IMG/VR virus record: IMGVR_UViG_3300030419_001717
Location: 1 to 64,000 of that record
DNA: 64,000 bases
Strand: one strand, 5' to 3'
Source of the DNA: a virus
Part shown: positions 9,386-33,556 of the stretch, piece by piece
How positions within the stretch are numbered: the first letter of the stretch is position 1
Layout of the letters: every line of letters starts with the position of its first letter
Translations under genes and position numbers: made by a program
The notes under the pieces: model-generated
What the model was told of the DNA's origin: nothing
The model's input: the letters and a program-made list of their open reading frames with translations, nothing else
Databases searched by the model: none

Positions 9386-9733
9386 TTAATCATCCTGTGC
9401 ACCGTATATTCTTTTGCCGGGTTCTTGGCTTGCCCCAACTTTACCTAAATATTCTTGGTTGTTTTCGTAAGCTATATCATAAGTAGTTCCAGAGTATACT
9501 TCAGTTATAGCTGGTTTATCTTTAATATAGTCAGGCATCTTATCGTAACAGGTTGTTCCGCGATGTGCAGACATCTCGTTGATTTCATCTTGACTTGGAT
9601 GTGGCCAGTCTAGAGTCTTTGCGTACTCCTCAGACCAATGTTCTCCTTTGAACAATCCACCAGCCGAAGAATCTACAACCTTATCTTTGGTTTGATTACC
9701 TTCATATTTTTTATACATCTCTTTTGTTGGCAT
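9386..9733 (-). CDS. Unknown hydrophilic protein
   Basis: 115 residues, soluble, no membrane segment or known motif. Contains WPHPSQDEINEM and an aromatic/acidic central part. It starts with MPTKEMYKKYEGN after a GGAGAATAACA ribosome site. It is co-directional and nearly contiguous (2 bases) with the His-rich gene. Possibly a minor virion or head-assembly protein given its place; nothing in the sequence decides this. Confidence 0.6.
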   Translation of the reverse strand: MPTKEMYKKYEGNQTKDKVVDSSAGGLFKGEHWSEEYAKTLDWPHPSQDEINEMSAHRGTTCYDKMPDYIKDKPAITEVYSGTTYDIAYENNQEYLGKVGASQEPGKRIYGAQDD

Positions 9734-19109: not shown

Positions 19110-19244
19110 ATGACAACAACCGTAACACAACAGCAAGTAGCACAACACAACAAGGCAGTAATAGCCCGTGTAGTAGCCCAACACATTTGGGCCCAGACCA
19201 GTAGGGTAGCTACTACTACCAGACACAGCCAATGGAGTAGGTAA
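19110..19244 (+). CDS. 44-residue Gln/Thr-rich micro-protein
   Basis: ATG at 19110 after GAGGTAAAAGAA, 44 codons to TAA. The protein starts MTTTVTQQQVAQHNKAVIAR and continues with Val, Ala, His, Trp and Ser/Arg residues; no known fold is seen. It is directly under early promoter cassette P1, so expression early in infection is likely. Possible role: small host-interaction protein. The high content of Thr, Gln and Arg is unlike its neighbours. Confidence 0.55.
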   Translation: MTTTVTQQQVAQHNKAVIARVVAQHIWAQTSRVATTTRHSQWSR

Positions 19245-19246
19245 CT

Positions 19247-19369
19247 ATGAAATGGCTTGAGGTAGGTAGCCTATCCGTAGGTGACCCAGAAGAGGTATTA
19301 GACAAGCTTAATGCATTACTAACTAAAACAATAAATGAAGCACAAAAACAAATGGAGGAAAAGAAATGA
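19247..19369 (+). CDS. 40-residue charged helical micro-protein
   Basis: ATG at 19247, two bases after the previous stop, with AATGGAGTAGGTAAC giving a GGAG-like ribosome site. The 40-residue protein (MKWLEVGSLSVGDPEEV start) ends in an amphipathic helix with NEAQKQMEEKK. Not recognised. It overlaps the next small frame by ATGA. Confidence 0.55.
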   Translation: MKWLEVGSLSVGDPEEVLDKLNALLTKTINEAQKQMEEKK

Positions 19370-19431
19370 ACTATAGAAACTTTTTAGTAAACTACTTAGT
19401 AACAGTATCTTACGCAACCCGTAAGCTGTAA
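19366..19431 (+). CDS. 21-residue micro-ORF
   Basis: ATG overlaps the previous stop (ATGA) after GGAGGAAAAGAA; 21 codons ending RKL. Hydrophobic/aromatic composition (NYRNFLVNYLVTVSYA) suggests a short membrane peptide if made. Kept because of the ribosome site and coupling, but very short. Confidence 0.3.
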   Translation: MNYRNFLVNYLVTVSYATRKL

Positions 19432-19596
19432 ACAGTAAGCCGTCCCTAAGTCGGGACATGTCCTATATTGTACCATGTCCACATATGCCTACCCCCCTAG
19501 GCACCCCCCCTATACCCCCCCATGCCATAATTCTACCATGCGCCCACTTTTTTTTATTTATTTATTATTTTGTGCTTAGCTTTTTTTGTAAACATT
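19432..19596. other. Intergenic region with palindromes and C-runs
   Basis: Contains hairpin GTCCC/GGGAC at 19442-19457, the perfect 10-base palindrome GGACATGTCC at 19454-19463, two runs of 6-7 C at about 19492-19520, CCATGCGC at 19536-19543 (part of the GRCCATGYGC family) and a T-run at 19550-19559. Likely 3' end of the first early transcript and control region for the next cassette. No gene is seen. Confidence 0.5.
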
Positions 19597-19702
19597 GAGC
19601 GGGCTGTATATAGGGGTATATAAGGTAAGAGGAGCCTTATATACTGTTTAGAGACAAAGCTTTATATACTCTCTCGCTACAAGTATAATAGAGGTAAATA
19701 CA
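19597..19702 (+). promoter_or_regulatory. Early promoter cassette P2 with three TATA boxes
   Basis: TATA-like boxes at about 19615-19623 (GTATATAAGG), 19636-19645 (CTTATATACT) and 19660-19670 (CTTTATATACTC), then CTCGCTACAAGTATAATA and GAGGTAAATACA before ATG at 19703. The final 45 bases are almost identical to those of P3 and P4. Confidence 0.82.
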
Positions 19703-20053
19703 ATGACTAATCAAACGTATACAACAAATAAAACCGGCTTTATCGTCTTTGACGGTAGAATAATGTCAATTCACAATTTTTGGATTGAAGTAATGGGTTC
19801 CAGAATGGAAGGCACAAATTCCCTTTATTGCCACACCGTAGGCTGGGCAAACTTGCACAGCTTTGGAACTAAACACGGAAGTCTTGACGACTCCGAAGTT
19901 TGGAACGTAATAAATAGCGTAGGTGCTAAGTTCGTCTTATACCCTTCCCAAAAACCAGACAGGTATAACACTTGGGACGGCGGACGCTGGGAACAGAAAA
20001 TGCTTGAACTTGGAGCAATGGAAAATGGCTGTTATCAAATGGGGGACTTTTAA
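19703..20053 (+). CDS. Unknown early protein, 116 residues
   Basis: First gene under cassette P2. Soluble, aromatic-rich protein with mixed alpha/beta character (GFIVFDGRIMSIHNFWIEVM and NVINSVGAKFVLYP). No transmembrane segment, Cys cluster or known motif. The stop is followed directly by the ATG of the next gene (20054), so the two are translationally coupled. Codon use here is more GC-rich than in the replication operon. Function unknown; early location suggests host control. Confidence 0.72.
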   Translation: MTNQTYTTNKTGFIVFDGRIMSIHNFWIEVMGSRMEGTNSLYCHTVGWANLHSFGTKHGSLDDSEVWNVINSVGAKFVLYPSQKPDRYNTWDGGRWEQKMLELGAMENGCYQMGDF

Positions 20054-20278
20054 ATGAGCTGGACAGAAACACCGGCCGAAGTATTCCGCCGAAATCAAGA
20101 ACGCAAAGCTAAAGAAATGCAAACAGCAATGACGACAAGCGAGTTAAAGGTAGCTATTGACTCGCTACGCTTTGATATAAGTAAACTTAACACTTGGAAC
20201 GTAAGAAGTCCTAACGATATAGAATACTACGACGAAGTCCTCGCACAGCTAAGCTGGAGGTTAGAACGTGGTATTTGA
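20054..20278 (+). CDS. Unknown early protein, 74 residues
   Basis: Directly follows the previous stop. MSWTETPAEVFRRNQERKAK begins a helical, charged protein with an LKVAIDSLRFDISKL amphipathic helix. No known motif. Its end holds GGAGGTTAGAAC, which serves as ribosome site for the next, GTG-started, micro-gene. Confidence 0.68.
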   Translation: MSWTETPAEVFRRNQERKAKEMQTAMTTSELKVAIDSLRFDISKLNTWNVRSPNDIEYYDEVLAQLSWRLERGI

Positions 20279-20342
20279 ACTAATAATGGTTTTCTTCGCA
20301 CTAATAGAAGTTTATACTTTTATAAAAGCAATGGAGGGATAG
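20268..20342 (+). CDS. 24-residue hydrophobic micro-protein
   Basis: GTG at 20268 with GGAGG seven bases upstream; sequence MVFELIMVFFALIEVYTFIK then AMEG and TAG. A single hydrophobic helix suggests a membrane-inserting peptide. It overlaps the previous gene by 11 bases and its own end (ATGGAGGGATAG) supplies the ribosome site for the next gene. No known family. Confidence 0.45.
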   Translation: MVFELIMVFFALIEVYTFIKAMEG

Positions 20343-20344
20343 AA

Positions 20345-20458
20345 ATGTTAAAGTTTAATAGTAGGTGGCGCAAGCTCGCCAAAGATATAAAGCCCAAAAA
20401 AAAGAAAGAACCAGAAAGCTGGAACGCCGCCGACTTCATTTTTCACGTCGATAAATAA
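20345..20458 (+). CDS. 37-residue basic micro-protein
   Basis: ATG preceded by GGAGGGATAGAA, an excellent ribosome site. MLKFNSRWRKLAKDIKPKKK start, then an acidic/aromatic tail (WNAADFIFHVDK). Last gene of the P2 operon. Not recognised; charge suggests nucleic-acid binding. Confidence 0.55.
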   Translation: MLKFNSRWRKLAKDIKPKKKKEPESWNAADFIFHVDK

Positions 20459-20463
20459 AGTTG

Positions 20464-20473
20464 GCACATGGTC
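20464..20473 (-). promoter_or_regulatory. GRCCATGYGC element, inverted copy
   Basis: GCACATGGTC, the reverse complement of GACCATGTGC, lies 6 bases after the stop of the P2 operon and about 50 bases upstream of the first TATA box of P3. One of at least four copies in this 3-kb region. Confidence 0.5.
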
Positions 20474-20600
20474 GATTTTTTCAAAAAAGTGCGTTCGGGT
20501 TCTATATTGGGGTATATAAGTCCCCACGACGTTTATATACTAATTTGACCCAAACCTTTAAATACTTTCTTGCTACAGGTATTATAGAGGTAAGAGACCA
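20474..20600 (+). promoter_or_regulatory. Early promoter cassette P3 with three TATA boxes
   Basis: TATA-like boxes at about 20511-20519 (GGTATATAAG), 20530-20540 (GTTTATATACT) and 20555-20565 (CTTTAAATACTT), then TTGCTACAGGTATTATAGAGGTAAG and ATG at 20601. A/T run between the element at 20464 and the first box. Confidence 0.8.
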
Positions 20601-20705
20601 ATGTCAAAATCAAAATTCAAAGGAACGCGTTTTACAATAGCAAGTCCTGAAGCAACCAAAATGTGGAAGGCTGTTAAAGAGTTAAAACGTTTATACGCAA
20701 AATAA
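20601..20705 (+). CDS. 34-residue basic micro-protein
   Basis: ATG at 20601 after GAGGTAAGAGACCA. The 34-residue protein starts MSKSKFKGTRFTIASPEAT and ends with a basic helix (WKAVKELKRLYAK). It is followed at once by a strong hairpin (20714-20734) and the structured RNA region. It may be a real early peptide, or a 5' leader ORF of the RNA/tRNA transcript. Confidence 0.5.
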   Translation: MSKSKFKGTRFTIASPEATKMWKAVKELKRLYAK

Positions 20706-21225
20706 ATTAGGTTTAAAGGGGTAGCTCCCCTTTATCGTGAGTGGCTGAATAATCCCTTCCCAAAGGGGATAAGGCACACAACACCCTTGACCAACGGACA
20801 AGTGTCTGAGGGATAGGTGAGTGGTAGGCGCGGACACAATACTTAGGTATTTGGGCCGGTGGTCCTTGTGGGTTAACCTTGAATCCCACCTCACACCCGC
20901 TTAGGGGAACCGTGGAAGCTATCGACTGCTTCCCGACCTAAAAAGATGAAAATAGCAAAATAGTATTGCAACCCTAAGCACCTTATTGTTATTGCTGATT
21001 GCAACAGCTTTAATAGTCGGGTATAATCCGACTTAAAATAATGTCTGTCGCCGGACAACGAATGGCGAAGCGTAAAACAGCACACAGGTTAAGAGTGTTG
21101 CTTCCTAATCAGTTAGGGACACAAGAGCTTGTGTGACTGGAGTGACTATAGCACTCGCGGTTGGAAGCCCGTGGTTAGCGTGAGGGGTTCTGGAGCACCC
21201 CAACAGACAACCTTATTATTCTAGT
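20706..21225 (+). ncRNA. Structured RNA region A, leading into tRNA-Glu
   Basis: About 520 bases with no plausible gene but many perfect hairpins: TAAAGGGG/CCCCTTTA (20714-20734), ATCCC/GGGAT (20752-20770), AATAC-TTAG-GTATT (20838-20851), GGGCC/GGTCC (20853-20865), GTGGG/CCCAC (20868-20889), TTAGG/CCTAA enclosing GGAAGC/GCTTCC (20901-20941), AGTCGG/CCGACT (21015-21033), TCGCC/GGCGA (21048-21068), ACACAAG/CTTGTGT (21119-21134), GGGGT/ACCCC (21184-21201). It is downstream of P3 and runs into the tRNA gene, so the two probably share a precursor. RNase P, SRP and rRNA signature sequences were looked for and not found. Confidence 0.6.
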
Positions 21226-21301
21226 GGAGTCGTAGTGTAGTGGCCCAGCATTTAAGGCTTTCGACCTTAAGACCCGGGTTCGAATCCCGGCGACTCTGCC
21301 A
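21226..21301 (+). tRNA. tRNA-Glu, anticodon UUC
   Basis: 76 bases including an encoded CCA. Acceptor stem GGAGTCG/CGACTCT with a G-U first pair, D stem GTGT/GCAT, anticodon stem TAAGG/CCTTA with loop CTTTCGA (anticodon TTC for GAA/GAG), variable loop of 4 bases, and T stem CCGGG/CCCGG with loop TTCGAAT. Discriminator base is G. No intron. It is the only tRNA gene seen in the window and follows RNA region A directly. Confidence 0.93.
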
Positions 21302-21311
21302 GCTAAAATTT

Positions 21312-21321
21312 GACCATGCGC
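21312..21321 (+). promoter_or_regulatory. GRCCATGYGC element
   Basis: GACCATGCGC lies 10 bases after the tRNA and about 45 bases upstream of the first TATA box of P4, followed by an A/T run. Same placement relative to a promoter as the copies at 20464, 22054 and 22449. Confidence 0.5.
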
Positions 21322-21446
21322 CAATTTTTCAAAAACAGTGACCGGAACCTATATCGCAGTATATAAACCCCCTCGATACTTATATACCTTTTTGAGAGAA
21401 ACCTTTAAATACTCTCTCGCTACAAGTAAAATACGAGGTAATACAA
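21322..21446 (+). promoter_or_regulatory. Early promoter cassette P4 with three TATA boxes
   Basis: TATA-like boxes at about 21359-21368 (AGTATATAAA), 21379-21388 (CTTATATACC) and 21403-21413 (CTTTAAATACT), then CTCGCTACAAGTAAAATACG and GAGGTAATACAA before ATG at 21447. Near-identical to P2 over the last 45 bases. Confidence 0.82.
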
Positions 21447-21581
21447 ATGAGTTTCAAAGAAAATATAAAAAGAAATAAGTTTAGATTTAGGAAAGCTCCA
21501 ATTAGGAGACAACCGGAAAATAAAATAGACAGTGGAGTCTTAGACCAGCTTAAAGCTAAAAGATTGGGGTTGACCGAATGA
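21447..21581 (+). CDS. 44-residue basic early micro-protein
   Basis: First gene under P4. MSFKENIKRNKFRFRKAPIR start, strongly basic N-terminal half, then a short helix (GVLDQLKAKRLGLTE). Overlaps the next gene by ATGA. Likely nucleic-acid binding from charge only. Confidence 0.6.
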   Translation: MSFKENIKRNKFRFRKAPIRRQPENKIDSGVLDQLKAKRLGLTE

Positions 21582-21751
21582 GAGACGAGCTTTGGGAATT
21601 GGCTAATGATTTTCATTACGAAAACAGCGGAGCAACCGGAGAAGAAAACCTTCACCACGAAAAATGTGAATGGGTTTACGGTAATTGCACCTGCGGTAAA
21701 GCTGAAGAATTACAAATAAGATACGATTACGAGGACGACGGTGATTACTAA
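21578..21751 (+). CDS. 57-residue acidic early protein with Cys triad
   Basis: ATG overlaps the previous stop. Acidic protein (MRDELWELANDFHYENSGAT) with C30, C37 and C39 in CEWVYGNCTCGK and histidines HH just before, which could form a small metal site. Ends in an acidic tail (DYEDDGDY). Coupled to the next gene by TAATG. Unknown function. Confidence 0.6.
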   Translation: MRDELWELANDFHYENSGATGEENLHHEKCEWVYGNCTCGKAEELQIRYDYEDDGDY

Positions 21752-21891
21752 TGAGTGAACACAACGTATATAATTGGACCGACTTCTTATTGTGTATAGG
21801 AATGGAACTCGCCTACTATAAGAATGGCGAACGTCCTATCCAAGAACAAATGATAGCAGAAAAATTAATAGAAATAGGAGGTATAAAATAA
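21751..21891 (+). CDS. 46-residue unknown early protein
   Basis: TAATG overlap with the preceding gene. MSEHNVYNWTDFLLCIGMEL start; a helical, soluble protein with QEQMIAEKLIEIGG at the end, a pattern like a small dimerisation helix. Its end (GGAGGTATAAAATAATG) provides the ribosome site for the next gene. Confidence 0.6.
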   Translation: MSEHNVYNWTDFLLCIGMELAYYKNGERPIQEQMIAEKLIEIGGIK

Positions 21892-22049
21892 TGTTAGTAA
21901 GAAAGACAGACGCAGAGCTTATAAGAAAAGGTTTTGAAGAAGACGACCTAGTCTGCGATTCGTGTAAAGACGCTCACGCTACGTCAAGGGCAAGCCACGA
22001 CGAAGTGTGCACAGATTGTTTTTACGAAATCTACGACGGGTGCCCTTAA
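21891..22049 (+). CDS. 52-residue zinc-ribbon micro-protein
   Basis: GGAGG lies 8 bases before ATG at 21891. CDSC at about residues 22-25 and CTDC at about 40-43 form a CxxC-X14-CxxC zinc ribbon; a fifth cysteine is near the end. Last gene of the P4 operon. One of at least seven single-zinc-ribbon small proteins in the window. Probably a protein- or RNA-binding module. Confidence 0.65.
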   Translation: MLVRKTDAELIRKGFEEDDLVCDSCKDAHATSRASHDEVCTDCFYEIYDGCP

Positions 22050-22053
22050 ATTG

Positions 22054-22109
22054 GGCCATGTGCAAACCTTTATTAAGGAGGTCGCTATAGGTATATCAGA
22101 GGTCAAACA
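22054..22109 (+). promoter_or_regulatory. GRCCATGYGC element and promoter of 92-residue gene
   Basis: GGCCATGTGC at 22054-22063 is followed by the TATA-like AACCTTTATTAAGG (22065-22078). The transcript would start near 22097. GAGGTC at 22099-22104 precedes ATG at 22110. A single TATA box, unlike P1-P4. Confidence 0.6.
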
Positions 22110-22388
22110 ATGACAGATAATCAAAAGAAAACAACAACGATTGAGAAGCCCTATGAAATTTGGGTGGATAAGCACGGAGCCGGTTTTGAGTGGAGAGTAT
22201 TAAAGAAATACCAAAAACCAGAACTGGAAGCAAAGAACCAATACGCCCGGTGGTTCTGTGGTGTTAAGTCACCGTATACTTACGGAGAATTTGAATTAGG
22301 AGACGTTTACGTTTCAGAAATTAAATCAATGGCTACCAAGATAATAGAAGGCGCTGACGAATGCGCTGACTGGATAGCTAACCACTAA
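22110..22388 (+). CDS. Unknown early protein, 92 residues
   Basis: Monocistronic under its own promoter. MTDNQKKTTTIEKPYEIWVD start, basic and aromatic, with a helical C-terminus (SEIKSMATKIIEGADECADW). One cysteine in WFCGVKSP. No known motif. A hairpin at 22407-22440 follows. Early location and isolated promoter suggest a regulatory or host-directed role. Confidence 0.7.
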   Translation: MTDNQKKTTTIEKPYEIWVDKHGAGFEWRVLKKYQKPELEAKNQYARWFCGVKSPYTYGEFELGDVYVSEIKSMATKIIEGADECADWIANH

Positions 22389-22406
22389 GAGTTAACAACC
22401 TCTAAC

Positions 22407-22440
22407 GGGGTGGTTTCAGGAGCCGAATTCCGACCACCCC
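22407..22440 (+). terminator. GC-rich hairpin after the 92-residue gene
   Basis: GGGGTGGT at 22407-22414 pairs perfectly with ACCACCCC at 22433-22440, 8 bp with an 18-base loop, 19 bases past the stop, followed by AAAAGTT. Probably the 3' end of the transcript. Confidence 0.55.
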
Positions 22441-22448
22441 AAAAGTTA

Positions 22449-22503
22449 GACCATGTGCGAAAATTTTATAGGTCACTTCGGAGGGAGCCCCTATATAAGG
22501 GGT
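22449..22503 (+). promoter_or_regulatory. GRCCATGYGC element and TATA box of RNA region B
   Basis: GACCATGTGC at 22449-22458 with A/T run, then CCTATATAAGG around 22490-22500, the same order as at P3 and P4. The TATA sequence is the loop of a CCCC/GGGG hairpin nested in GGAGGGAG (22480-22487) / CTCCCTCC (22521-22528). Confidence 0.5.
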
Positions 22504-22517
22504 TGGGCGTCCCACTT

Positions 22518-22853
22518 TAACTCCCTCCTGATAAGACCTTTTGTCATTGTAAGGGTGGGCCTGTGAGACTTCAAACGGTTTCCCGTCACGAGAGTTTCAA
22601 TTTAATTAGTGAGAACCATTGACACAACGATTAGTTTAAGGTTTAAGTAATAGGGAAGGATTCAACGTTTCGTATTTCCTCGAGTAGTTTGAGAAAGGGC
22701 GTCCTACGGCACTTTAAATAATATACTCCTAACAAGTGACTAAACGACATTGATAGAGGGACGGCTACGCATTTATATCTAAACTTTAATATCTAATTTG
22801 CGAGTGGTGACTAATTAACAGGCCCGTTTTATCGAGCTCTGATAAATATAATT
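22518..22853 (+). ncRNA. Structured RNA region B, likely promoter-to-terminator unit
   Basis: About 340 bases with no credible gene, bounded by the TATA box at 22490-22500 (start expected near 22518) and the hairpin at 22854-22872. Local hairpins such as ACGG-TTTC-CCGT (22575-22586) are visible, but the structure is less clear than in regions A and C. The sequence is not similar to those regions by eye. A discrete small RNA is the best reading; a long leader or decayed gene is possible. Confidence 0.4.
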
Positions 22854-22872
22854 GGGGAGGAATCGCCTCCCC
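22854..22872. terminator. Bidirectional terminator hairpin
   Basis: GGGGAGG (22854-22860), loop AATCG, CCTCCCC (22866-22872). On the plus side it is followed by TACGTTTTAGTTATTTATT; on the minus side it lies 14 bases past the stop of the convergent gene at 22887. Serves both convergent units. Confidence 0.65.
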
Positions 22873-22886
22873 TACGTTTTAGTTAT

Positions 22887-23240
22887 TTATTCCATTGCTT
22901 CAAGCTTAGCTTTAAGCTCAGTCAATGAAATTCTTCCAGACTTTACAGCAGAAATTATACTTTCCGGCGTTGCGGACACTTTACCAGCTCCGAGTCTACG
23001 GGAAGCCTGTAAATCTATAATTCGACTTGTAATAGCTGAAGTAGTTTTATTAAACTCTTCAACACTCAAGACGTCATTTAGAGCTACGAGGGTATCGTAT
23101 TTAACTCCGACGGGTAGACGGCCCCCCTCTGACGCAGTGAATCCAAGCAAAGACATTAAGTTCTTTACTATTCCACTGTTGCGAGGTGCGGACAAATAAT
23201 CCATTGCTGTGCTTTTCTGGGTTTCAGTTGTTTTTGGCAT
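22887..23240 (-). CDS. Lone minus-strand gene in the early region
   Basis: 117 residues, the only minus-strand gene between the divergent region and the tail module. Basic, with KSTAMDYLSAPRNSGIVKNL at the N-terminus and a long helical C-terminal half (ITSRIIDLQASRRLGAGKVS). Its promoter on the minus strand has AGCTTTATATACTTTC and AAGGAGTG just upstream of ATG. Position and orientation, opposed to the early operons, are those of a regulator or of a gene under separate timing; no DNA-binding motif is obvious. Confidence 0.7.
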   Translation of the reverse strand: MPKTTETQKSTAMDYLSAPRNSGIVKNLMSLLGFTASEGGRLPVGVKYDTLVALNDVLSVEEFNKTTSAITSRIIDLQASRRLGAGKVSATPESIISAVKSGRISLTELKAKLEAME

Positions 23241-23277
23241 TTTTTACACTCCTTTTCTGGTAAATTACAGAAGGTTT

Positions 23278-23295
23278 GAAAGTATATAAAGCTTG
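23278..23295 (-). promoter_or_regulatory. Minus-strand TATA box for the lone gene
   Basis: AAGCTTTATATACTTTC at 23294-23278 on the minus strand, with AAGGAGTG near 23253 before the ATG at 23240. Confidence 0.65.
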
Positions 23296-23303
23296 TGGTA
23301 GAA

Positions 23304-23340
23304 ATCATATATAAAGCCCCTCGACCCTTTTATACCCCTG
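23304..23340 (+). promoter_or_regulatory. Partial early promoter cassette P5
   Basis: CATATATAAAGCCCCTCGAC then CTTTTATACC repeats the first-box, CCCCTCG and second-box order of P1 and P4, but the third box and ribosome site are missing. No plus-strand gene follows for about 600 bases, so it would transcribe the iteron region. Confidence 0.5.
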
Positions 23341-23399
23341 TATAGCTTCCGCTCACTACTTTTCGTTTTATCCGCACATGTGTAGATTTTAATACATGC

Positions 23400-23860
23400 A
23401 GTGGTATAGAGTTTATATCTTTAGCTCAATTAGGCTCTATAAAAACCTATCGGTTATAACGTCGTAATCGGTCGGTGAGAAATTTATATTTTTTAGGTGC
23501 TTAATGGAGCTTATAAACTTTATATTACTTTTTGAAAGCTCTATATCGCTCGTTGACTGGCTCTACTACGCACAGCCCCCGTGAGAAACTGTATAAGGCA
23601 CTGAGTTTCTTTCGTAATAGAGCATTTTCTTTTATACGTTTGCGTTAAAAAAAATACTATAAACAATACGTTGCTCTAATATTATAATTAAGCTCTATTA
23701 AGATATTAATAGGCTCTATTAAGCAATATATCTTTTGCTCTATTAAGATATATAATTATAGACCTATATAAAGCTTGTTCTAATATAGCTCTTAATAGAG
23801 CCTTATCTTAATATAGTTTAATATAGTCTCCCGTTTTTTTATAAGTGTGAGCGGGATTTG
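23400..23860. repeat. AT-rich iteron cluster, candidate replication origin
   Basis: No gene is seen between 23241 and 23956. The 11-mer GCTCTATTAAG occurs at 23692-23702, 23713-23723 and 23737-23747 (start spacing 21 and 24) and inverted at 23791-23801. Partial copies occur at 23434, 23538, 23615 (inverted) and 23673. The surroundings are very AT-rich with several TATATAA runs. Direct and inverted iterons at near-helical spacing in an AT-rich region next to the replication operon are typical of origins. A dense protein-binding control region is the alternative. Confidence 0.5.
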
Positions 23861-23914
23861 CATACCTTTAGCGTTGAGCACAAGTCTATACGTTTAGACC
23901 CCAAAAACCGCCGA

Positions 23915-29452: not shown

Positions 29453-29556
29453 GTAGTTATTGGACTGAAGATAGAAAACAGAGAGTAGTAGATTATATCT
29501 CTGGGTTTATCTTTGGATATTGTATAGGGATGATAGTAGGAGTATGGATTCTATAA
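29449..29556 (+). CDS. 35-residue membrane micro-protein
   Basis: ATGA overlap with the glycosylase gene. MSSYWTEDRKQRVVDYISGF then a hydrophobic Gly-rich helix (FIFGYCIGMIVGVWIL), one membrane span. Overlaps the next membrane micro-protein by 13 bases. Confidence 0.6.
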   Translation: MSSYWTEDRKQRVVDYISGFIFGYCIGMIVGVWIL

Positions 29557-29675
29557 TAGAAAGATTAAAAGCTATATGGAGTAATCCACGTGACATACAA
29601 GAAGCTGAATGGTATATACTAATAGGCTTCTTTATTATGATATGGATGTGGATGTTTATATGGCACGGTTCTTAA
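29544..29675 (+). CDS. 43-residue membrane micro-protein
   Basis: Amphipathic N-terminal helix (SIIERLKAIWSNPRDIQEAE) and a Trp/Met/Phe-rich membrane span (WYILIGFFIMIWMWMFIW). Ends just before RNA region C. Both small membrane proteins could form a complex or affect the host membrane; inference only. Confidence 0.6.
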   Translation: MDSIIERLKAIWSNPRDIQEAEWYILIGFFIMIWMWMFIWHGS

Positions 29676-30330
29676 ACAAGGTGATAGGATAGAAGTGACA
29701 ACCTTATTTCTTAAACAGTTGTTTGGCTCATTTTACCTCTCGTTGCTTCTATCCCACTAAATGTGGTAGAGACCTGAATCATACGCCCCAAAGTCGCTGA
29801 GAAAGATATAATGACTGAGCCACATGATATGGCCCAAACAGGTGAGATATACATCTGATGCTATAAGCAGACGATACACATCTCTGGAAAACTGTCGTTA
29901 TATCTGTGTCGCTGGTGAGGAATATAACTATTGAAACACCTGAAGCAGTTATGCAGATGGACTGAATCCCGTAGAGATTCTATACAGTAGAAACTATTGG
30001 ACCTTTAGTTATATATGTATACCGTCGTTGGACAAGAATGGATACGCAGAACGCTACGTTGGATAGCGTCAATACGCAAGTTATACTTAGACCGGACACT
30101 TAGTAGGTGAGTAGCGGTATGGATGCTACTCATAAAGAGAACCAAACGTAGGAGGTATAACCTGACTACCCTGTCTTATGGTTATACAGCTAATCATTAT
30201 GCACTACCTATGTGTCAAGCGAACCTACTAAACATATAGCATGGACCCGTTGTCAAGGAGTAAGCTGTAAGGCCCGCATAGGGCGAGTGATAAACAAGGA
30301 CATATTCGTCGGTGAGAAGCACATCTATAT
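29676..30330 (+). ncRNA. Structured RNA region C, about 650 bases
   Basis: No gene is seen. Strong stems: GGATAGAAG with GUGAC extension (29687-29699) pairs with 29742-29754 (13 bp with two G-U); GAATC/GATTC (29964-29980); ACGCTA/TAGCGT (30051-30069); TGAGTAGC/GCTACTCA (30108-30132); GTATAACC/GGTTATAC (30155-30187); GCCC/GGGC (30272-30284). TTAGTAGGT (30100-30108) pairs with ACCTACTAA (30223-30231) and encloses two of these hairpins, forming a multibranch junction. This density of perfect stems fits a large structured RNA. It may be transcribed from the upstream operon. Confidence 0.65.
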
Positions 30331-30367
30331 ATGCTTAGTTTTGTTTGGGGTTATATCTCTCTCTACC

Positions 30368-30425
30368 ACAAACTTTAAATAGATATTTGATATATATTGA
30401 AATAACAAATGGAGGTTTTGAAAAA
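30368..30425 (+). promoter_or_regulatory. Promoter after RNA region C
   Basis: AACTTTAAATAG at 30371-30382 is a TATA box; GGAGG at 30411-30415 precedes ATG at 30426. It restarts transcription of the rightward operon after the RNA region. Confidence 0.65.
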
Positions 30426-30521
30426 ATGGTAAGAGAATTTATAGTATGGTTAGATAAAAAATTCGGTTTTAGTAGTAAGAAACTAATGATAAGACCCAGA
30501 AAATATAACAAAGGTAAATAA
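30426..30521 (+). CDS. 31-residue basic micro-protein
   Basis: MVREFIVWLDKKFGFSSKKL start; basic with aromatic residues. Good ribosome site (ATGGAGGTTTTG upstream). Unknown function. Confidence 0.55.
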   Translation: MVREFIVWLDKKFGFSSKKLMIRPRKYNKGK

Positions 30522-32857: not shown

Positions 32858-32957
32858 ACATATACACAAACGACTCTGGGAAGAGAACTGTCTCAGTGAT
32901 TGGGGTAAGTATGTTGTTCAAGTAGAAACTATAGAAGAATGGATGGATGAAGCATGA
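32823..32957 (+). CDS. Unknown protein with GTG start, 44 residues
   Basis: GTG at 32823; MERKEAKWVLAKHIHKRLWE start, helical and Trp-rich (WEENCLSDWGKY, EEWMDEA). ATGA overlap with the isoprenoid-synthase-like gene. Start is uncertain because there is no ATG. Confidence 0.45.
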   Translation: MERKEAKWVLAKHIHKRLWEENCLSDWGKYVVQVETIEEWMDEA

Positions 32958-33556
32958 AAGAAGTGATGAGAAAATATAGCACCACATTTTTTGAATGTAT
33001 GAAAGATTGGCCTGAACATATTAAACAAGACATATATAAGTTATATGCCTATCTAAGAGTATGTGATGAAGTAGTAGAAGGTCAAGAGGACTACAGTGCT
33101 AGTGAGAAAATGAAGATAACTAAAGAGTTCCATGAAGTATTTGATAGGTATGAGATGGAAGGTAAGTGGCTTGATTCATTCCATCATGCTATGTTAACTG
33201 ATTTAAATAAAAAGAAACATACTATAGTGTCAATGTTAGAATACTGTAAAGGTTCTTCTGAGACAGTAGGACTTATGATGTCACGTATCTTAGGGTGTCC
33301 ACCTGAAGCAGATGAATATGCAAAGGCTTTGGGTAGAGCATATCAAATAATAAACTTCGTTAGAGATTATGAAGAAGACATAGAGAAGGGATATCATTAT
33401 ATAGGTGAAGACCATACATTATACCTATTACTCTTTATAGAAGAGTTAGAAACAGCTATGGAAGGAATCAATTACATACCAGAAGATTTGCGTGGTCCTA
33501 TTATTAAAGCTAACCAAGCATACATAGAGGTGGCACGTGAAGCCAACTTACTATAA
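32954..33556 (+). CDS. Squalene/phytoene-synthase-like enzyme, short form
   Basis: 200 residues. The family signature is clear: LRVCDEVVEGQED (about 35-47) as the first Asp-rich motif, and AYQIINFVRDYEEDIEKGYH (about 129-148) as the second, close to the canonical AxQLTNILRDVxEDxxxG. YCKGSSETVGLMMSRILGCP matches the YCYxxAGxVG region. It condenses two isoprenyl diphosphates head to head. It is short compared with usual 270-290-residue enzymes and lacks about 70-80 residues at the C-terminus, so it may be specialised or partly degenerate. Carotenoid or squalene-like products for host membranes are inferred. Confidence 0.85.
   Translation: MKEVMRKYSTTFFECMKDWPEHIKQDIYKLYAYLRVCDEVVEGQEDYSASEKMKITKEFHEVFDRYEMEGKWLDSFHHAMLTDLNKKKHTIVSMLEYCKGSSETVGLMMSRILGCPPEADEYAKALGRAYQIINFVRDYEEDIEKGYHYIGEDHTLYLLLFIEELETAMEGINYIPEDLRGPIIKANQAYIEVAREANLL

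Follow-up and report, generated by a model that had tools for sequence, protein, structure and literature searches.

Genomic setting

The window, a 64,000-base stretch of DNA, is part of a 70,372-base IMG/VR virus record (IMGVR_UViG_3300030419_001717). Its genes encode a T4-type terminase, an HK97-like capsid protein, a family B DNA polymerase (PolB), an ATP-dependent DNA ligase, a class II ribonucleotide reductase, a pyrimidine dimer glycosylase, and CobS/CbbQ-like AAA and CobT-like VWA proteins. There are 19 boxes of the form CTTTA(A/T)ATA where shuffled sequence would give 4.9, and many of these stand 23-90 bases ahead of first genes. Genes for PolB, ligase, glycosylase, CobS and CobT have been reported for the magroviruses of Poseidoniales (PMC10160649), and compared with that published list the window holds all of them (PolB, DNA ligase, DNA glycosylase, CobS and CobT). 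The TATA boxes, together with this overlapping gene set, support an archaeal host, which the first-pass annotation had supposed and which we infer here, and the virus is probably a marine one. A Maricaulis host, suggested by a genome bin, was rejected: the one PolB relative in a genome bin, 71% identical to that of the window virus, lies on a Maricaulis MAG contig (L147, NZMJ01000097.1) that is probably a misbinned viral contig.

Other parts of the window are unusual in their own right. A squalene/phytoene synthase-like gene (32954-33556, plus strand; Pfam E = 1.5e-27) is an uncommon lipid or carotenoid gene for a virus. The region 19200-23900 is largely gene-poor; it contains a manA RNA (20714-20899, plus strand; 55.5 bits against the Rfam gathering score of 55.2), a tRNA-Glu gene and TATA boxes at 19660, 20556, 21403 and 22712, and it may hold further RNAs, although none related to the element described below was found there. 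The manA motif is known from marine metagenomes, cyanophages and gamma-proteobacteria (PMC2864571), and its presence alongside archaeal promoters in a virus is unexpected.

The element under study occupies a boundary between two transcription units:

29544..29675, plus strand: upstream gene for a 43-aa membrane-like protein; the RNA begins 5 nt past its stop codon
29681..30369, plus strand: modular structured RNA, whole unit, with homologues in about 25 viral records and covariation
30373..30381, plus strand: archaeal TATA box that serves the downstream unit, just beyond the 3' end of the RNA
30426..30521, plus strand: downstream gene for a 31-aa protein, starting 53 nt past the TATA box

Each plus-strand frame of the RNA contains 14-16 stop codons, in agreement with the earlier description of about 650 bases without a credible gene. 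The 3' limit of 30330 given there was misplaced; it leaves out the 3' strands of two closing stems, P2 and P3, and the real end lies near 30369, about 40 bases further on.

A conserved core hairpin and closing stem

Homologues were sought by scans with the polymerase and the CobT-like protein, followed by reading of the syntenic place, which yielded about 24 further elements; a pattern search with one interior module (module I) added one more, L175. Matches to a module A pattern in L112, L113, L115, L117 and L119 were discarded as chance matches within one conserved coding gene. The shortest homologue has 100 nt and the longest 825 nt. MAFFT misaligned the homologues when given them whole, since their modules do not follow a common order, and each element was therefore aligned separately. 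The constant part of the RNA comprises the following features:

29681..29757, plus strand: core hairpin, covarying across 21 distinct sequences
29763..29772, plus strand: 5' strand of closing stem P2, pairing with 30360-30369
29786..29792, plus strand: 5' strand of P3, pairing with 30344-30350
30344..30350, plus strand: 3' strand of P3, pairing with 29786-29792
30360..30369, plus strand: 3' strand of P2, with 3 nt between its end and the next operon's TATA box

The core hairpin consists of the 13-bp stem P1 (29687-29699/29742-29754), which the first-pass annotation had placed correctly, and a 3-bp stem, P0 (29681-29683/29755-29757), which it lacked; the two are separated by a 3-nt bulge (29684-29686). 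Of the 336 cells in P0 and P1, taken over 21 distinct arm sequences, 97.9% are paired. Double-sided changes are seen in 10 of the 16 pairs and in 75 cells, where shuffles give 22.9, and arms slid against each other are at most 46% paired at any shift. The bulge is invariably A-N-A, one U-G wobble is retained in 19 of the 21 sequences, and P1 occurs once per record. In several homologues (for example L059 490-564, L110 and L094) the P1 loop has a sequence close to TTTTACCTCC, similar to the end of 16S rRNA that bears the anti-Shine-Dalgarno; the CCTCC of this motif is missing in part of the group.

P2, the outer closing stem, was likewise absent from the earlier description; 99% of its cells are paired in 12 distinct sequences, with both sides changed in 7 of 8 pairs. 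The arms of P3 vary in concert, being CCCCAAA/TTTGGGG in the window, CCCAAAA/TTTTGGG in G001, CCCTAAA/TTTAGGG in G004 and CCCCTAAA/TTTAGGGG in L175. One subgroup has two extra short stems flanking an internal loop, typically TTTGAA/AAGCC, with 97.5% pairing; a P3 of that other subgroup was part of the count.

For these counts artificial spacers linked the arms, loops were excluded, linker letters outside stems were set to a common form, one bulged base of G001 was omitted, and the registers of P2 and of modules A and B were picked by pairing; as a result the slid controls somewhat favor structure. Unconstrained folds and the previously unseen homologue L175 are free of this bias. The unconstrained minimum-energy fold of the window RNA contains both P1 and a 9-bp long-range stem (30100-30108/30223-30231) where the first-pass annotation had put them, and its energy of -193.4 kcal/mol is unchanged when the covariation-supported helices are forced.

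Fold energy is itself modest evidence and does not choose a strand, because both strands beat 20 dinucleotide shuffles only moderately (z = -2.84 for the plus strand and -4.47 for the minus strand). The strand is decided by the G-U and A-C combinations: P1 contains 45 G-U cells and 1 A-C cell, and the structured molecule is therefore plus-strand RNA; a reverse-strand RNA, despite its good fold, is ruled out by this ratio. The same asymmetry contradicts the view that no RNA is made and that the inverted repeats reflect chance or work in the DNA itself, for instance as an origin or a site of recombination. Shuffles of the same composition do fold fairly well, yet G-U pairs would not be kept and A-C avoided in such a case, the long-range stems would not show compensatory changes, and the strand would not be consistent relative to the operon; we regard this explanation as scarcely credible.

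By comparative sequence analysis we thus demonstrate a conserved, elaborately folded plus-strand RNA, present in single copy at one locus in this group of viruses. The proposal of a large, ornate structured RNA is borne out by compensatory change across about 25 homologues, in the core as well as in the interior, and among the stems that could be tested neither a loss of conservation nor a conserved reading frame was found.

Interchangeable interior modules

The closing stem encloses about a dozen folded modules that recur in the group and differ among viruses in subset, order, nesting and even circular permutation. Those delimited in the window are:

29840..29905 (approximate limits), plus strand: module L, a stem followed by CTGGAAAACT, in common with G004, G029 and L175
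29911..29921, plus strand: module K core, GCTGGTGAGGA, in common with G019, L138 and L175
29936..29971, plus strand: module J, ACACC, a hairpin and GGACTGAATCCCG, in common with G029 and L137
30100..30231, plus strand: module A, a three-way junction, with covariation in 11 sequences
30189..30202, plus strand: module F, GCTAATCATTATGC, lying inside module A in this virus and inside A or B in others
30255..30299, plus strand: module I, AAGGAGTAAG ... GATAAACAAGG, in common with G001, G019, G029, L138 and L175
30307..30321, plus strand: module H core, CGTCGGTGAGAAGCA, in common with L129 and L137, with a longer form in G001, G029 and L138

The 9-bp stem of module A, PA1 (30100-30108/30223-30231), had been described as building a multibranch junction, and it indeed closes a conserved three-way junction together with a hairpin (30109-30115/30125-30131) and PA3 (30147-30152/30207-30212). 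Pairing holds in 89.4% of cells over the 11 sequences, with both partners changed in 16 of 24 pairs; the three stems vary by compensation around the constant segments AGGU, AAGAGAACC and GUCAAGCGAACCU. The hairpin loop (30116-30124) probably pairs with a downstream ACC segment (30140-30146) in a pseudoknot, the predicted pairings being UUGGU/ACCAA and UGGGU/ACCCA; few changes support the pseudoknot itself. In G012, L129 and L137 module A is circularly permuted: the same segments are present and the junction is entered via a different arm.

In module B the internal loop GGCCACG / GUAGGAC stays constant, whereas the two stems that flank it are different in almost every virus, with 100% pairing and both sides changed in 9 of 9 pairs. 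Module C has a near-identical sequence in four viruses under three different closing stems. Order is equally labile: H precedes I in G001 and follows it in the window, G029 and L138; J stands before A, or within it in G029; and D follows A in most viruses and precedes it in G012. No module occurs twice in any RNA, internal repeats were absent, all matches lie on one strand, and none of the modules was found elsewhere in the compared viral loci outside the RNA. At the other extreme, minimal forms of about 100-130 nt have none of the modules; G024 is a 112-nt core, and the distant candidates G035 and G037 are scarcely more than a core hairpin. G029 is built of the same parts, but its P1 hairpin follows the closing stem rather than preceding it.

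The element L175 lay outside the original sample and was retrieved by the module I pattern alone, and the P1 model, built beforehand and untrained on it, recovers its hairpin at 23.5 bits (E = 3.7e-6). L175 bore the predicted design: the bulge in its P0/P1 reads ATA, its P2 has 12 bp and a new sequence, its P3 has 8 bp, and the stems of its modules A, B, I and L are paired. Its PA1 has changed from AGGU/ACCU to AGGA/UCCU. A module A model (R2) gave no score for this diverged copy, although the parts of the module are visible by eye. Judged from these alignments, the RNA is shown to have a constant core, made of the bulged P0/P1 hairpin and the closing stem P2, and a variable interior of interchangeable folded modules.

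Position at the operon boundary

In many records the RNA starts 0-10 nt past the last upstream stop codon, and in nearly all homologues only a few bases separate its end from a TATA box. The flanking genes change (at least five upstream and at least five downstream types) while the RNA stays, and from the fixed borders despite these changes we conclude that the RNA is its own unit at an operon boundary; it is probably made by read-through from the upstream operon.

These borders also suit the main rival to the interpretation developed below, namely a cis-acting 3' end element whose core hairpins would stop, process or protect the mRNA of the upstream operon and insulate it from the next promoter, with the modules as tolerated passengers in a loop. 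The minimal forms in G024, G035 and G037 are consistent with such a role. Passengers, however, should not retain their junction sequences under compensatory change or recur across viruses, as the modules do; hundreds of nucleotides would be excessive for an end element, and no T-run terminator was noted. We consider this account possible but, on balance, doubtful.

Relationship to known RNAs

At gathering and relaxed thresholds alike, neither the region nor its relatives gave a match to any Rfam family, the covariance models of GOLLD, ROOL and OLE do not match (GOLLD was searched at E up to 10 in 29500-30500 and at E up to 5 in L175), and BLASTN against phage and plasmid records returned chance matches or nothing. 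The RNA is best called a new family of large structured viral RNAs, set apart by the Rfam models and by its exchangeable architecture.

The suggested resemblance to GOLLD and ROOL holds for size, viral setting and elaborateness, and fails for an Rfam match, a fixed architecture and a tRNA island. GOLLD, as described in PMC12286853, is likewise large, elaborate, viral and of unknown function, with a conserved part joined to a less conserved one. Its constant part is a universally conserved 3' region, whereas here it is the 5' hairpin with the outer closing stem. GOLLD comes from bacterial phages, often near tRNA islands; the window RNA resides in a probable archaeal virus, and the sole tRNA of the window, tRNA-Glu at 21226-21301, is 8.4 kb away. 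In the distant relative G035 (L098 9416-9493 and about 9616-9688, minus strand) a tRNA-Lys gene follows about 120 bases downstream of a core-like hairpin. Shuffling of GOLLD modules is not described in the text consulted (PMC12286853), which for ROOL gives a similar length (a 659-nt example), a phage setting, pseudoknots and an unknown function.

According to the same source, GOLLD and ROOL assemble into cages (PMC12286853). By analogy, contacts between module loops could join copies of the window RNA into a cage or another oligomer with something enclosed in it or displayed on it, and the similar size, elaborateness, viral setting, pseudoknot and conserved loops would fit such an RNA-only assembly. 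A symmetric cage could hardly tolerate lengths from 100 to 825 nt and a changing set of modules, and with no Rfam match in addition we think this unlikely.

OLE is likewise a large RNA scaffold, with several known binding proteins, which is the mode we propose here; it differs in being bacterial, non-viral and of fixed architecture.

The VWA protein Ro60 and its Y RNAs pair a VWA-domain protein with a structured RNA that has a bulged stem. The window also places a VWA-domain gene beside an RNA with a bulged stem, and by this analogy the RNA might be a partner of the neighboring CobS-like AAA and CobT-like VWA proteins, in which CbbQ/CobS-like AAA and CobT/VWA domains were detected; in many relatives the RNA lies directly 3' of the VWA gene or one small gene away. 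The window RNA is nevertheless far larger, modular and not always beside a VWA gene: intervening genes or a different location of the RNA are seen in L128, L142, L175, G029 and G032, and G035 and G037 have a different upstream gene. A TROVE domain, the RNA-binding domain sought in the neighbor protein, was not found, only VWA/CobT_C, and a dedicated partnership seems to us quite improbable.

A model for the modular RNA

We favor over these rivals, with about even confidence, a trans-acting scaffold or decoy RNA built from a constant handle and exchangeable binding modules. The RNA would form the end of the transcript of the CobS-like AAA / CobT-like VWA operon, or of whichever operon lies upstream, would be trimmed or terminated at the next promoter, and would then act in trans as a stable scaffold. 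The core would be the constant handle, to which a single constant partner probably binds, and every module would offer its own binding or decoy site to some host or viral factor. Separate binding sites would explain how modules are gained, lost, nested and permuted with each fold kept. The scaffold model is supported by the compensatory change that the core and modules A and B all show, by the recurrence of modules in different orders and nestings as single copies on one strand, and by the parts that L175 was predicted to carry; the retention of the RNA beside so many flanking gene types argues against control of one particular gene. Against it, the operon-end position directly before a promoter equally fits a cis element, the minimal forms suggest that modules may be dispensable, and the association with the CobT-like gene has exceptions (L128, L142, G029, G032 and G035).

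More tentatively, the RNA may be combinatorial, with the core as scaffold and a shared pool of domains from which each virus draws its own combinations and permutations, each domain neutralizing or recruiting a different host factor. If true, this would resemble domain shuffling in proteins.

Few large viral RNAs are known and their functions are unknown; the one described here is probably from archaeal viruses. It evolves by swapping whole folded modules, with junctions preserved even under circular permutation, and thus offers a natural record of the growth of a large RNA by accretion and a ready source of independent three-dimensional RNA modules. The series from core-only forms to 825 nt provides a comparative handle on what such RNAs do.
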